Shown here one piece after another: positions 4,712-44,630 of a stretch of DNA of 64,000 nt; position 1 is the stretch's first letter; every line of letters starts with the position of its first letter. Location: positions 209,492 through 273,491 of the forward strand of contig CAJOFM010000001.1 in NCBI GenBank assembly GCA_905233915.1, in the 5' to 3' direction. Made by a program: the position numbers and the translations under genes. The DNA comes from an uncultured Muribaculaceae bacterium (lineage in GTDB: Bacteria > Bacteroidota > Bacteroidia > Bacteroidales > Muribaculaceae). The notes beneath the pieces are model-generated. The model was not told the DNA's origin, searched no databases, and saw only the letters and a program-made list of their open reading frames with translations.

Positions 4712-5197
4712 ATGAGAAGATCTGACAGAGAGAGGGATGCCGCTTTCGCCTTGGAGGTCTTGGACAAGGCCCCATTCGTGACGGTCAGCATGACCAGGGA
4801 AGACGGAACACCATACGGTTTACCATTGTCGTTGGCGCGTACCGATGACAAGACGTTCTACTTTCACTGCGCCCTGGAGGGAGAGAAACTGGACTGCATC
4901 GCCCATAACCCGGTTGTGTTCCTCTCTGCGGTGACCCGTTGCTCGCCGACCTTCGACTCCAAAGTCGGGAACTTCACCTTGCAGTACAGGTCTGCTACTG
5001 CCGTCGGCGTGGCAGAACTTGTGTCTGAACGTGAAGAGAAGATATCGGCCCTAAGAGTCATTTGCCAGCGTTTCCTGCCTCATCACATGGATGCTTTTGA
5101 TGATGCAATAGCTCGCAGCCTCGAACGGACAGCCGTGGTTCGTATCACATTGACCGAACCACCCGTCGGTAAGTGCAAGCAACTGACGGAGCAGTGA
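4712..5197 (+). CDS. NimA-like/pyridoxamine 5'-phosphate oxidase-fold flavin-binding protein
   Basis: 161 residues beginning MRRSDRE, the usual opening of the NimA-related branch of the split-barrel flavin-binding family. A conserved HxALEGxKLDxI segment (about 51-63) follows. Members bind FMN or F420-like cofactors or heme; some (Nim) reduce nitroimidazoles to amines, but most have unknown substrates. It follows the YgbA-like gene by only 7 bp and is probably co-transcribed with the nrf genes, which fits a nitro/nitrosative-stress role. Specific nitroimidazole resistance cannot be claimed from sequence alone. Confidence 0.78.
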   Translation: MRRSDRERDAAFALEVLDKAPFVTVSMTREDGTPYGLPLSLARTDDKTFYFHCALEGEKLDCIAHNPVVFLSAVTRCSPTFDSKVGNFTLQYRSATAVGVAELVSEREEKISALRVICQRFLPHHMDAFDDAIARSLERTAVVRITLTEPPVGKCKQLTEQ

Positions 5198-7027: not shown

Positions 7028-7053
7028 CTTGCGACATTGCCCGCAAGCACCAG

Positions 7054-7216
7054 GGGATTTCATTCACTATGGTCACGGGGTCGTATTCGGCTGCTTCACG
7101 CTCCGCACTTCAACCAGCCGGCTGCGCTGGCTGTATTGAGCTGCTCCGCTACAGCCTCATGCCGCTGGGCGACTTCGCCCGGCGGAGATCACCCTGTTCC
7201 CACCGCTCATCGATGG
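7054..7216 (+). repeat. Dispersed intergenic repeat, full copy A
   Basis: About 163 bp, nearly identical to copy B at 10044-10206. It starts GGGATTTCA, has the core TGGTCACGGGG...GCTTCACGCTCCGC, a CAGCCGGCTGCGCTGGCTG palindrome-rich segment, a perfect GGGCGA-CT-TCGCCC hairpin, and ends CCGCTCATCGATGG. It begins 26 bp after the MFS stop codon. Open frames across it share peptide fragments among copies but begin and end at unrelated places, so it reads as a structured noncoding repeat rather than a gene. Confidence 0.85.
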
Positions 7217-10043: not shown

Positions 10044-10206
10044 GGGAAATTCACTTGCTATGGTCACGGGGTTGTATTCGGCTGCTTCACGCTCCGCACT
10101 TCAACCAGCCGGCTGCGCTGGCTGGATTGAGCTGCTCCGCTACAGCCTCATGCCGCTGGGCGACTTCGCCCGGCTGAGATTACCCTGTTCCACCGCTCAT
10201 CGATGG
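10044..10206 (+). repeat. Dispersed intergenic repeat, full copy B
   Basis: Same order and length as copy A, with only a few substitutions and one single-base deletion near the right end (CTGTTCCACC instead of CTGTTCCCACC). It lies in the 426-bp gap between the DASS terminator and the esterase gene. The rest of the gap (10207-10306) is AT-rich promoter sequence, with a weak TAACTTG box at 10304. Confidence 0.85.
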
Positions 10207-41425: not shown

Positions 41426-42121
41426 TTGAAAAGCTGGAAACGATATATGAGTGCCTGGAGCCGCCACCATCGCAGTGGCGGCTTCGGCATACATTCGCCC
41501 TATGCCTACCAGTTTGTGCGCAATGTGTGGCGCCAACGGCTGCCCTATTATGCCTACGGGGGCATCCATCAGCTCATCGACACCATCAAGCAGAGCACGA
41601 CACGGCAACAGCGACGTGAGATGGACCTCATCAGCGAGCGGGAAGCCCGCCTGCTGTTTCGTGTGACCAACTTCTTTAATCCGCAGAGCATCCTGCAAGC
41701 GGGAGCCTCGACAGGCGTCGAGAGTGTCGCCATGATGGAAGTGGGGCACAATAGCCGCCTATACCTTTATGACCCTGACATCGAACAAAAGGCACTTGCC
41801 GTGCGCGTTCTCCAGACCCAACTGGAACGAATCGACTGTTATGACAACATCGATGTAGCGGTCAACGAAATGCTGGAAGGCAGCGACTCACCCATGATGG
41901 CACTACTCAACACCCCTGTCAAAGACGAAGCGGTGAAACGGCTATTGGATGCCCAATGCGTCGTTGTGTTGCGCAATCTGAACCGCGACAAACTGATGAC
42001 ACAACTATTCGACACCTGCCGCCAAGACATGACCAAGGGGCAAACCTACACCAACGACAAAATCGCCATCCTCAACCCCCACCCCAAACTGCAACGCGAG
42101 GATTTCCTCCTGTGGCTATAA
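41426..42121 (+). CDS. SAM-dependent methyltransferase-like protein
   Basis: 231 residues from TTG at 41426 (or from ATG at 41447). The N-terminus WSRHHRSGGFGIHSPYAYQFV is typical of a Bacteroidetes class I methyltransferase group. The central QAGASTGVESVAMMEVG (about 91-107) is in the position of the SAM-binding glycine loop but departs from the usual DxGxGxG, and the DPDIEQKALA strand follows. Catalytic status is therefore uncertain. The final 13 codons lie in a 43-bp sequence that is repeated exactly 1564 bp downstream, beyond the ATPase gene. Confidence 0.7.
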   Translation: MKSWKRYMSAWSRHHRSGGFGIHSPYAYQFVRNVWRQRLPYYAYGGIHQLIDTIKQSTTRQQRREMDLISEREARLLFRVTNFFNPQSILQAGASTGVESVAMMEVGHNSRLYLYDPDIEQKALAVRVLQTQLERIDCYDNIDVAVNEMLEGSDSPMMALLNTPVKDEAVKRLLDAQCVVVLRNLNRDKLMTQLFDTCRQDMTKGQTYTNDKIAILNPHPKLQREDFLLWL

Positions 42122-42161
42122 AAAATGCCATCAAAGGGATAGTTTCTTTGACGACATTTTT

Positions 42162-42240
42162 CCGATTATGTGATTTTTTATCGGAAAATCTTTCCGATAA
42201 TGTGATTTTTTGCTTAATTTTGCTGCCGATAATGTGATTT
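42162..42240 (+). promoter_or_regulatory. Promoter with three 15-bp boxes at exact 32-bp spacing
   Basis: CCGATTATGTGATTT (42162-42176), CCGATAATGTGATTT (42194-42208) and CCGATAATGTGATTT (42226-42240). Starts are 32 bp apart, about three helical turns. The -7 box TAATTTTG is at 42215-42222, so the third box covers the expected transcription start and the second covers the -33 region. This is the layout of a cooperative repressor or regulator array. Confidence 0.8.
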
Positions 42241-42252
42241 AACGATTTCAAG

Positions 42253-43593
42253 ATGCTCAAGAGAAAGATAGATAACGTATTGGCAGAGTGGAAAAAACGT
42301 CCAGACCGAAAGCCACTTATCGTTCGTGGTGCCCGCCAAGTGGGCAAGACCATGTCGATACAGAATTTCGCTCATCAGCACTATCAACATGTAGTTGAGA
42401 TCAACTTTGTGCTACAGAGCCAATACCAGAGAATATTTGATGACGGTTATGATGTCAACTCTGTCATCAAGAACATCACTTTGATTAATCCCGAACACAG
42501 TTTTGTGCCTGGCAAAACACTGATTTTCTTTGATGAACTACAAGCTTGCCCCAACTGTGCCACGAGTTTGAAAGCCTTTAAGACCGATGGCAGATATGAT
42601 GTAATCTGCTCAGGCTCGTTGATGGGAGTCTATTATCAGCAAATAGAGTCCAACAGCGTCGGCTACAAGGAGGATTACACTATGCATTCCATGGACTTTG
42701 AAGAGTTTCTATGGGCTTGTGGATATGACAAAAGGTTGACCGATGACCTTTTGACTCACATGCTTGAAGTGAAGCCTCTGCCAGAGTTACAGATGCAGCG
42801 CATGGAGGAACTCTTTCGTTGCTATATGGTCCTAGGTGGAATGCCCGAGGTTGTCAACACCTATGTCACACAGGGAAACTTCAGCGGCACGTTGTCGCTC
42901 CAACGCCAGCTGCTACTTGACTATGAGGAAGACATTACCAAATATGCAATAGGCTTTGAGAAGGCAAAGGTATTGGCCATCTATCGCCACATCTCGACAT
43001 TTCTTGCTAAAGAGAACAAGCGTTTCCAAATCACTAAACTCTCTCCCACCGCCCGCAACAGAGCTTATATTGGCGCAGTGGAGTGGCTGGACAATGCTGG
43101 TATCATTAACGTGTGCTATTGTCTGCACGAATTGGCACTGCCGCTCAAGGGGAATTATGACCCAAAACTCTATAAAGTTTATTACCGGGACACAGGCCTT
43201 TTGATCGCCTCGCTTGACGAGGAAGCCCAAGAAGATTTGCGCAGGAATAAGAACTTTGCCACTTACAAAGGAGCTATCTTTGAGAATATTGTGGCCGACA
43301 TGCTTGTGAAACAAGGCTATAACCTCTATTACTATAAAGATGAAAAGTCATCCCTTGAAATGGACTTCTTTGTTCGCAGCGCCAACCACCTGTGGCCAAT
43401 AGAAGTTAAAGCAAGCAATACGTCCAGCGCATCTCTCAAGCGATTGACAGTTCCAGAAACAACCAACGCCCATCCCGACATCAAATGGGGCATTAAATTA
43501 TGTGCCGCCAATATCGGTTTCAATGGACACTTTTATACCTTCCCCTATTTCACAACGTTCCTGCTCAAACAGTGGTTGCGAGAGCAAGAGTGA
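42253..43593 (+). CDS. AAA-family ATPase with C-terminal DUF4143
   Basis: 446 residues. Walker A is IVRGARQVGKT (about 23-33), Walker B LIFFDELQ (about 92-99), sensor-like ICSGSLMGV (about 118-126). The C-terminal third is the DUF4143 domain, with YYRDTGLLIASL, GAIFENIVADML and MDFFVRSANHLWPIEVKAS; the last has the D...ExK pattern of PD-(D/E)xK nuclease folds. Such genes are abundant, variably present and of unproven role in bacteria. Composition is AT-richer than its neighbours. It is the only gene between the 43-bp direct repeats. Confidence 0.93.
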   Translation: MLKRKIDNVLAEWKKRPDRKPLIVRGARQVGKTMSIQNFAHQHYQHVVEINFVLQSQYQRIFDDGYDVNSVIKNITLINPEHSFVPGKTLIFFDELQACPNCATSLKAFKTDGRYDVICSGSLMGVYYQQIESNSVGYKEDYTMHSMDFEEFLWACGYDKRLTDDLLTHMLEVKPLPELQMQRMEELFRCYMVLGGMPEVVNTYVTQGNFSGTLSLQRQLLLDYEEDITKYAIGFEKAKVLAIYRHISTFLAKENKRFQITKLSPTARNRAYIGAVEWLDNAGIINVCYCLHELALPLKGNYDPKLYKVYYRDTGLLIASLDEEAQEDLRRNKNFATYKGAIFENIVADMLVKQGYNLYYYKDEKSSLEMDFFVRSANHLWPIEVKASNTSSASLKRLTVPETTNAHPDIKWGIKLCAANIGFNGHFYTFPYFTTFLLKQWLREQE

Positions 43594-43691
43594 TACTTGA
43601 AAATGTCATCAAAGGAATCATCCCCCAATGATGACATTATCCTATTCCCAAACTGCAACGCGAGGATTTCCTCCTGTGGCTATAAAAAACA

Positions 43692-43719
43692 CTGCCCCGG
43701 GCCTGATGGCTCGGGGCAG
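43692..43719. terminator. Terminator between the cassette and the FKBP genes
   Basis: CTGCCCCG pairs with CGGGGCAG (8 bp), inner GGCC/GGCT pairing extends it. Positioned between convergent genes. It probably served the methyltransferase-like gene before the cassette was inserted. Confidence 0.75.
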
Positions 43720-43745: not shown

Positions 43746-44630
43746 TTATTCCGTCTTAGCCTTAACGGGAGCGTTGATCTTGGGGAGCTTGGGCTGAGCG
43801 GGAGTATCATCCACACCGAGGGTCTCGATGTCGAAAATCAGAGTCTCCATGGGCTCGATGCCACGGTTACCCTGGGGACCGTAAGCGAGCTCACCGGGGA
43901 TAACAACGGTTACCTTGCTACCGGGCTTCATGAGCTGGATCATCTCGGCGAAGCCGGGGATGACTTGCTTCAGGTTGAAGGGAACGGGCTGCTCACCGCT
44001 CTTGTCAAACTCAGAGCCATCGAGGTGACGACCCACGTAGTTAACCTTTACGATGTCGCTGTCGCTGAAGTTCTGGCCCTCACCCTGGGCGAGCACCTTG
44101 TAGGCGATACCGCTCTTGGTGAAAACATAACCCTTGTCGCTCTTGAGCTTAGCCATGTACTCATCACCAGCCTTCTTGTTGGCGATAGCCTTGGGAGACT
44201 GCTCCATAGCCTTGTTCAACAGGGGCTCAATCTTGCTCTGCATGGCCATCATCTCTTCCTGACCCATGGGAGTGGTCTTCATGAGGGCATCCTTGAGGTG
44301 CTTCATGAAGAGACCCTTGTTGATGGACATACCACACTGCTGCTCAATGCCACCGTACAGCTGGGCAATCTGCATACCCATCTGCAGACCCTGCATAAAG
44401 GCCTTGCTAGTATCGGCGTTAGCGATATATTCCATACCCTTGAGGGCTTCTTCCATGTTGATAGCGGAGTCCATGCTGCGGAGCTGCTGACCCATACCGG
44501 CGCCATAGAGGTCACCAAAAGCCATGCTCAGCGAGTCCATAGCCTCACTGCTGCCACCACTCTTGCTGTTGCAACCAACGAAACCAATGGTCAGCAGACC
44601 TGCGGCTGCAAATGCTAAAATCTTCTTCAT
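43746..44630 (-). CDS. FKBP-type peptidyl-prolyl isomerase, lipoprotein
   Basis: 294 residues with a lipobox (GFVGCNS, Cys about 20). An N-terminal FKBP_N-like helical domain (about 30-165) precedes the FKBP fold (about 170-275: IVKVNYVGRHLDGSEFDKS, VIPGFAEMIQLMKPGSKVTVVIPGELAYG, LIFDIETL). It catalyses proline isomerisation and chaperones proteins in the envelope. A KxNAPVKAKTE tail ends the protein. First of the leftward end of three adjacent FKBP genes. Confidence 0.92.
   Translation of the reverse strand: MKKILAFAAAGLLTIGFVGCNSKSGGSSEAMDSLSMAFGDLYGAGMGQQLRSMDSAINMEEALKGMEYIANADTSKAFMQGLQMGMQIAQLYGGIEQQCGMSINKGLFMKHLKDALMKTTPMGQEEMMAMQSKIEPLLNKAMEQSPKAIANKKAGDEYMAKLKSDKGYVFTKSGIAYKVLAQGEGQNFSDSDIVKVNYVGRHLDGSEFDKSGEQPVPFNLKQVIPGFAEMIQLMKPGSKVTVVIPGELAYGPQGNRGIEPMETLIFDIETLGVDDTPAQPKLPKINAPVKAKTE

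Follow-up and report, generated by a model that had tools for sequence, protein, structure and literature searches.

An AAA/DUF4143 ATPase gene between two copies of a gene end in a Muribaculaceae genome: probable insertion with long target duplication

In the genome of an uncultured Muribaculaceae bacterium, a single gene encoding an ATPase of the AAA/DUF4143 type stands between two exact copies of the 3' end of its left-hand neighbour. The gene lies in a 64,000-nt stretch of DNA (positions 209,492–273,491 of contig CAJOFM010000001.1), hereafter the window, from whose first letter all coordinates are counted. We regard it as probable that the gene came to lie at the 3' end of this neighbour (41426–42121) by insertion with long target duplication. 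This reading is favoured by the footprint itself, by related genomes with a single copy of the gene end, by the low GC content of the insert and by the recurrence of such footprints around other AAA/DUF4143 genes, all of which are read directly from the DNA and from which we infer how the insertion would have taken place. It fits better than the att-site integration proposed in the original prediction. The prediction's other point, that a gene end had received an insert and been duplicated, is supported by the identity of the repeat with the neighbour gene's end and by the single-copy relatives.

A comparable form of gene gain has been described for restriction-modification genes, in Helicobacter, as insertion with “long and variable target duplications”; the passages devoted to it in PMC1643837, PMC3031569 and PMC4978471 credit it to Nobusato et al. 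(2000) and leave unsettled how such insertions happen. As in those insertions, an accessory gene is found here with a long direct duplication of its target. Unlike in those insertions, the gene concerned is a single Bacteroidales AAA/DUF4143 gene, the targets are mostly gene ends, the duplications span 30–161 nt and, in the window case alone, hairpins of the repetitive extragenic palindrome (REP) type lie inside the duplication. The window protein resembles the candidate defence system PDC-S01, with a PADLOC profile match over residues 1–440. In the part of PMC12988326 that concerns it, PDC-S01 is an ATPase fused to a PD-(D/E)XK member, is the fourth most common defence across prokaryotes and is a candidate, validation being pending for most such candidates; in the corresponding part of a survey of rumen genomes it is the most frequent individual locus (PMC13356809). 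Within a limited literature search, we know of no report of an insertion footprint for DUF4143/PDC-S01. A recurring footprint offers a handle on how PDC-S01 genes spread, ties them to the form of mobility described for restriction-modification genes, and makes testable the question of whether the gene moves by itself or is only carried.

Structure of the Locus

The direct repeat is exact over 43 nt, as originally predicted (copies at 42083–42125 and 43647–43689, both on the + strand, spacing 1564), and comprises the 3' end of the open reading frame (ORF) at 41426–42121 together with a run of A. When the window was scanned for direct repeats of at least 24 nt within 5 kb, the only other fully identical pair listed was that of two tRNA-Gly genes (15498 and 15623), the remaining families being simple repeats or imperfect copies. 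The final A's may be shared by chance, those on the left belonging to the A-run of a hairpin and those on the right to the A-run of a terminator, so that the true duplication may be of 37–43 nt. Copy 1 is joined to the intact target gene, a conserved ORF of 231 aa on the + strand, which has no Pfam match and for which “methyltransferase-like” was a label of the original prediction only; copy 2 is a partial gene end standing alone.

The two copies enclose, in this order, a REP-type palindrome just inside copy 1 and overlapping its A-run (42119–42165, + strand), three tandem repeats of CCGATNATGTGATTT with a 32-nt period (42162–42243, + strand), which form a probable operator array, one AAA_14 + DUF4143 gene of 446 aa (42253–43593, + strand), and a second REP-type palindrome just inside copy 2 (43597–43645, + strand). 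The near-identical 16-mers that had been noticed inside the repeats, AAAATG[CT]CATCAAAGG, begin at 42122, within the A-run of copy 1, and at 43600, and each does lie within a hairpin. The order repeat–REP–gene–REP–repeat places both REPs inside the duplication and means that they came with the insert; the same order rules out a history in which a REP was there first and the ATPase came later. Two nt after copy 2 follows a GC-rich hairpin, recognised by eye here as in the earlier description (43692–43719, no strand assigned), which is probably the terminator that originally separated the target gene from the convergent gene for an FKBP-type isomerase, the right-hand neighbour (43746–44630, – strand). 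In relatives, L034 among them, a similar hairpin was likewise recognised by eye beyond the gene end.

The GC content of the insert is 0.44, compared to 0.53 for the window, and among 625 windows of the same length taken in steps of 100 only the insert's own is as low, which points to a foreign origin. The nearest protein found to the ATPase is 87% identical and comes from the Bacteroidales metagenome-assembled genome RUG12992. No integrase was noticed near the insert when the ORFs at 38–48 kb were inspected by eye and four proteins were compared with Pfam, short of a systematic scan. An assembly artefact is unlikely, since the copies are 1.5 kb apart and diverged copies occur at other loci.

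The Same Site in Related Genomes

Of 101 genomes of the genus, 77, the window's own included, match the target gene at the DNA level, some of them over a short stretch only; in the longer matches the relatives are about 67–79% identical. Loci covering about 1.5 kb downstream of the gene end were obtained for 29 of the 76 other matching genomes, and in the DNA covered all 29 have a single gene-end copy and lack any match to the ATPase. The site is empty in 22 of them, the single copy running straight on to the FKBP gene, which begins 72–406 nt beyond the end of the target gene; one further contig (L031) stops 71 nt past the target gene. Related genomes with a single copy and no insert thus exist, as the original prediction had expected, in a comparison that is between species only. 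The remaining six (L007, L012, L014, L018, L021 and L026) carry other ORFs after the target-gene end, with the FKBP gene 1.25–1.3 kb away in L012 and L018 and outside the 1.5 kb covered in the other four. Similar ORFs of about 350 aa occupy the site in L012, L014 and L018, and another similar pair is found in L007 and L026.

In a further genome with the same neighbours, G088, an ORF of 262 aa with a weak dockerin match lies between the gene end and the terminator and is bracketed by a 164-bp, 91% identical direct repeat of that genome's own gene end (L247, G088:C22:24500-29500); the second copy contains a premature stop, and FKBP lies beyond the insert. The process is therefore not exclusive to the ATPase. 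The original prediction had named relatives with both repeat copies and no ATPase gene as evidence against itself; G088 has such an arrangement in part, with both copies of its own gene end around an unrelated gene. From these loci, the target-gene end is best described as a variable site, a hotspot of gene gain, with duplication in at least two species (that of the window and G088).

Footprints Around Other AAA/DUF4143 Genes

The original proposal that other AAA/DUF4143 genes might be flanked by direct repeats was borne out for part of the family. In the flank test, the 400 nt upstream of an ORF were compared with the 400 nt downstream by blastn (same strand, E ≤ 1e-6), leaving out of the counts loci with a flank shorter than 250 nt, with runs of N or with no ORF call (the last being L319, L320, L361 and L364 and, in the phylum set, L386), as well as refetched loci and identical proteins. 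A flanking direct repeat was found at 35 of 193 non-redundant loci of the genus and named sets and, phylum-wide, at 5 of 29, two of which (L389 and L390) share one repeat and are not independent. Control ORFs had one in 6 of 357 cases in all, a few of these ORFs being possibly counted twice, as some loci overlap the window or one another: 0/18, 3/156 and 3/47 in three sets of ORFs of at least 250 aa, 0/83 among ORFs of at least 150 aa from the window and five larger loci, and, by the same test, none around genes of two accessory families, Fic (0/25) and AbiEii (0/28). The six positive controls consist of three RAYT-like genes, one PDDEXK_2 transposase, one GH2 gene and, within a locus rich in repeats, one trypsin-like gene. 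Set against the accessory genes (0/53, a set smaller than the test set), the excess around AAA/DUF4143 genes has a Fisher p of 2e-4; with the 353 non-transposase controls as the reference, p is 6e-15. Many of the genomes are multi-contig drafts. A preceding form of the comparison, in which the flanks were chosen differently, yielded 13/72 against 7/165 controls, three of these seven being themselves AAA/DUF4143.

Assigned by eye and after the fact, the 35 repeats fall into nine gene-end duplications, eight arrays near the gene (within about 100 nt of the ATPase gene, on both sides), ten hairpins and eight dispersed or low-complexity repeats. The gene-end duplications comprise, besides the 43 nt of the window at the end of the 231-aa ORF, 48 nt at the end of a small ORF (L051), 96 nt of a GGGtGRT gene (L081), 83 nt of an SbcC-like gene (L189), 161 nt that include 24 nt from the end of an amino-acid-kinase gene (L225), 40 nt at the end of a tRNA-Leu (L167) and 33, 30 and 66 nt resembling the end of ComM (L211, L206 and L213, respectively). 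In a larger fetch of the L211 locus (L250), a longer and a partial ComM ORF are both present. The nine repeats have no 5-mer in common on the same strand, and the longest stretch common to any pair is of 13 nt (L206 and L213, both ComM-like). In L393, from another family of the phylum, the ATPase gene lies between a 5' remnant and an intact FAD-oxidoreductase gene (144 nt, 79%), and this locus is a tenth case, in which the 5' end of a gene is duplicated. The copies at the 35 loci are 76–100% identical, a spread that events of different age would produce. The identical pair L297 and L298, considered as a fresh jump, was dropped owing to runs of N alongside.

Tandem AAA/DUF4143 genes occur in L248 (G051:C37), L057 and L073, where the repeat separating two genes recurs after the next gene, like stacked cassettes; the recurring separators are ComM-like ends in L248 and L213 and hairpins in L057 and L073. 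At L198 (1104–2273), an exact 60-nt repeat of two units abuts an AAA/DUF4143 gene at both ends, at its ATG and at its stop codon. The genomes G043 and G040, each of about 2.8 Mb, have 35 DUF4143 matches (32 over the cut-off) and 29 (26 over the cut-off), respectively, compared to 3 in the genome of the window.

Hairpins and Upstream Repeats

The hairpin found at both ends of the insert also flanks RAYT-like genes in other genomes of the genus (L035, L036 and L041), whose products match Y1_Tnp above the cut-off and, short of its threshold, the model for REP-associated transposases; the hairpins are named REPs on this ground. Like the REPs of RAYT-like transposases, the window hairpins align with the hairpins beside such genes of the same genus, both copies fitting the consensus of an alignment of 21 hairpins. 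Unlike those REPs, they stand on either side of an ATPase gene and are enclosed by a 43-bp direct repeat. A covariance model, R1, built from this alignment with the window copies included, gives 50.7 bits for the left palindrome and 47.2 bits for the right one; elsewhere in the genome it finds one weak place (25 bits) and three near chance, and the genome's own RAYT-like gene carries a different hairpin. The same hairpin ends had been expected at other AAA/DUF4143 genes, an expectation that failed: at E 0.001, R1 has no match in 80 named ATPase homolog loci, and in 92 genus sources it has four weak matches, in three sources. The idea that the hairpins are general cassette ends was rejected on these counts. 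In 92 further sources R1 finds both strands of L014 and, besides, L252, a second entry for the L189 locus; in L014, which is without the ATPase, a window-type REP also follows the end of the same target gene. Against Rfam a single match was obtained, far below the gathering score.

The limits of the unit were examined from homologous pairs. Among the pairs listed, at least many of those in different contexts share DNA that begins about 50–170 nt ahead of the ATG and ends shortly before the stop codon, the starts of the shared DNA often stepping by about 32 nt, and pairs from the same locus share more; the shared unit accordingly consists of the upstream repeats and the ORF. Upstream repeats, scored at 13 of 16 matching positions, are present at 171 of 213 genus and named AAA/DUF4143 loci, compared to 52 of 420 control ORFs and 9.5% of shuffles, with a period of 32–33 in 118 of the 140 best loci. 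They are weaker in the canonical subset (13/28), rare phylum-wide (3/29) and also precede 8 of 27 Fic genes, mostly with period 33, so that they are not a mark of mobility, and these three counts weaken the view of them as transposon ends. In the window, the third CCGATNATGTGATTT repeat sits between the ATG of the AAA/DUF4143 gene and a box that we take, from its consensus, to be –7-like. The 32–33-nt repeats are most likely autoregulatory operators overlapping the promoter. At the Fic genes concerned (L323, L336, L338, L340 and L344–L347), repeats spaced by 31–41 nt, mostly 33, overlap promoters in an AAA/DUF4143-like layout, and the C-termini of the Fic proteins resemble winged helices by eye.

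The Encoded Protein

The 446-aa protein has two Pfam domains above cut-off, PF13173 (AAA_14, 85.6 bits) and PF13635 (DUF4143, 105.7 bits), and its match to the PDC-S01 profile has an E-value of 1.3e-151. An AlphaFold model computed from 30 sequences (pLDDT 84.1, pTM 0.86) resembles best the archaeal ATPases PABY2304 and SSO1545, followed by CED-4 and plant NLRs, over residues 1–340, and on this model the ATPase part is of the STAND type (signal transduction ATPases with numerous domains). The match to SSO1545 and PABY2304, AAA+ (STAND-like) ATPases, covers residues 1–322 and not the nuclease-like C-terminus. A search of the PDB by sequence gave nothing significant for this protein. Walker-type residues are conserved, and in the 30 sequences E344 is invariant and D371, E384 and K386 are present in at least 90%; E344, D371 and E384-x-K386 are what would be expected of a PD-(D/E)XK nuclease. 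The C-terminal part is thus predicted to be nuclease-like, from these conserved residues, weak profile similarity and a statement to this effect in the relevant part of PMC12988326.

Mechanism and Alternative Explanations

In the mechanism that we propose, a foreign fragment consisting of REP, operator repeats, AAA/DUF4143 gene and REP would have entered the 3' end of the gene at 41426–42121. Most likely, either a break or a pair of nicks, one in each strand and offset by tens of bases, would have opened the target; once the fragment was joined in, gap filling would have copied the stretch between the nicks to both sides. In this way 37–43 bp at the insertion point would be duplicated, the host gene left intact and a partial copy of its end placed beyond the insert. 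The nicks may be due to the encoded ATPase-nuclease or to chance damage, the former being the less probable.

Several observations weigh against insertion with long target duplication. At the threshold of the flank test, 158 of the 193 AAA/DUF4143 loci have no repeat, and of the 35 repeats found, the 26 other than the nine clear gene-end duplications are arrays, hairpins, dispersed or of low complexity; most of the control ORFs, moreover, are neighbours of ATPases and not accessory genes. The comparison with empty sites is one between species, at about 67–79% identity in the longer matches. In the six occupied relatives a second copy of the gene end was undetected within about 1.5 kb downstream, beyond which one would escape notice, so that gene gain at this site does not need duplication, and in G088 a duplication of this kind surrounds a gene unrelated to the ATPase at the site.

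How the fragment came to be inserted can be accounted for in different ways. Passive gain, in which the ATPase gene is ordinary accessory (defence) cargo captured by general repair or recombination that duplicates target ends, and plays no role in moving itself, comes in our estimate close to an even chance. The other genes at this end in six relatives and the unrelated gene of G088 with its 164-bp, 91% duplication fit this account, as do the REPs, which look like flanks carried from a REP-rich donor, and the presence of upstream repeats before 8/27 Fic genes; the failure of Fic (0/25) and AbiEii (0/28) genes to show the flanking repeats seen at AAA/DUF4143 genes (35/193, and 5/29 phylum-wide) does not. 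What favours it over self-mobilisation is that, at this very site, a gene unrelated to the ATPase has the same footprint. Self-mobilisation, by which the STAND-like ATPase, carrying a PD-(D/E)XK-like domain of predicted catalytic activity, would bind its own repeats, nick twice at offset positions and insert, appears doubtful, and stays in play because the footprint is enriched around the family and unseen around 53 Fic and AbiEii genes. The conserved E344, D371, E384-x-K386 and Walker-type residues, a fold close to that of SSO1545 and PABY2304, the up to 35 DUF4143 matches per genome (32 over the cut-off) and the unit of upstream repeats and ORF shared in many pairs would agree with self-mobilisation; a common end sequence was not seen, however, the length of the duplication is not fixed, upstream repeats are found in only 3/29 phylum-wide loci, and the G088 gene has acquired the same footprint. 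Extended to the family, this would make AAA/DUF4143 (PDC-S01) genes one-gene mobile elements, in which a STAND ATPase-nuclease makes two offset nicks and inserts its own gene, with no terminal repeats or known transposase and with duplication of tens to about 160 bp of target, a proposition that we consider unlikely.

Both the att-site reading and one based on a RAYT fit less well than passive capture or self-mobilisation. Duplicated 3' ends of genes and tRNAs are typical att sites, and the same gene end holds duplicated inserts in two species (the window's and G088); that a tyrosine or serine recombinase acting in trans carried out a site-specific integration is nevertheless very improbable, since the targets differ, the repeats vary from 30 to 161 nt, the nine gene-end repeats are without a common same-strand 5-mer, the L393 case is at a 5' gene end, and an integrase gene was not noticed nearby (by eye, with no systematic scan). 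Somewhat less remote, though still improbable, is a composite of REP, gene and REP, moved as single-stranded DNA by a Y1 transposase that recognises the two hairpins. The hairpins do belong to the REP family that flanks Y1/RAYT-like genes in L035, L036 and L041, and a RAYT-like gene is present in the same genome; this gene has a different hairpin, however, and the window REP is found in 0/80 named ATPase loci at E 0.001. The 43-bp duplication also speaks against the composite, since IS200/IS605 members do not generate larger target site duplications, according to the passage of PMC2817692 on this point, a rule whose extension to RAYTs we infer.

Other Repeats in the Window

Elsewhere in the window, a 148-nt repeat occurs at 7053–7200 and 10044–10191, the copies being 94% identical, about 3 kb apart and located after different genes. 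Partial copies are present near 5191 and 14073, as in a dispersed intergenic repeat family.

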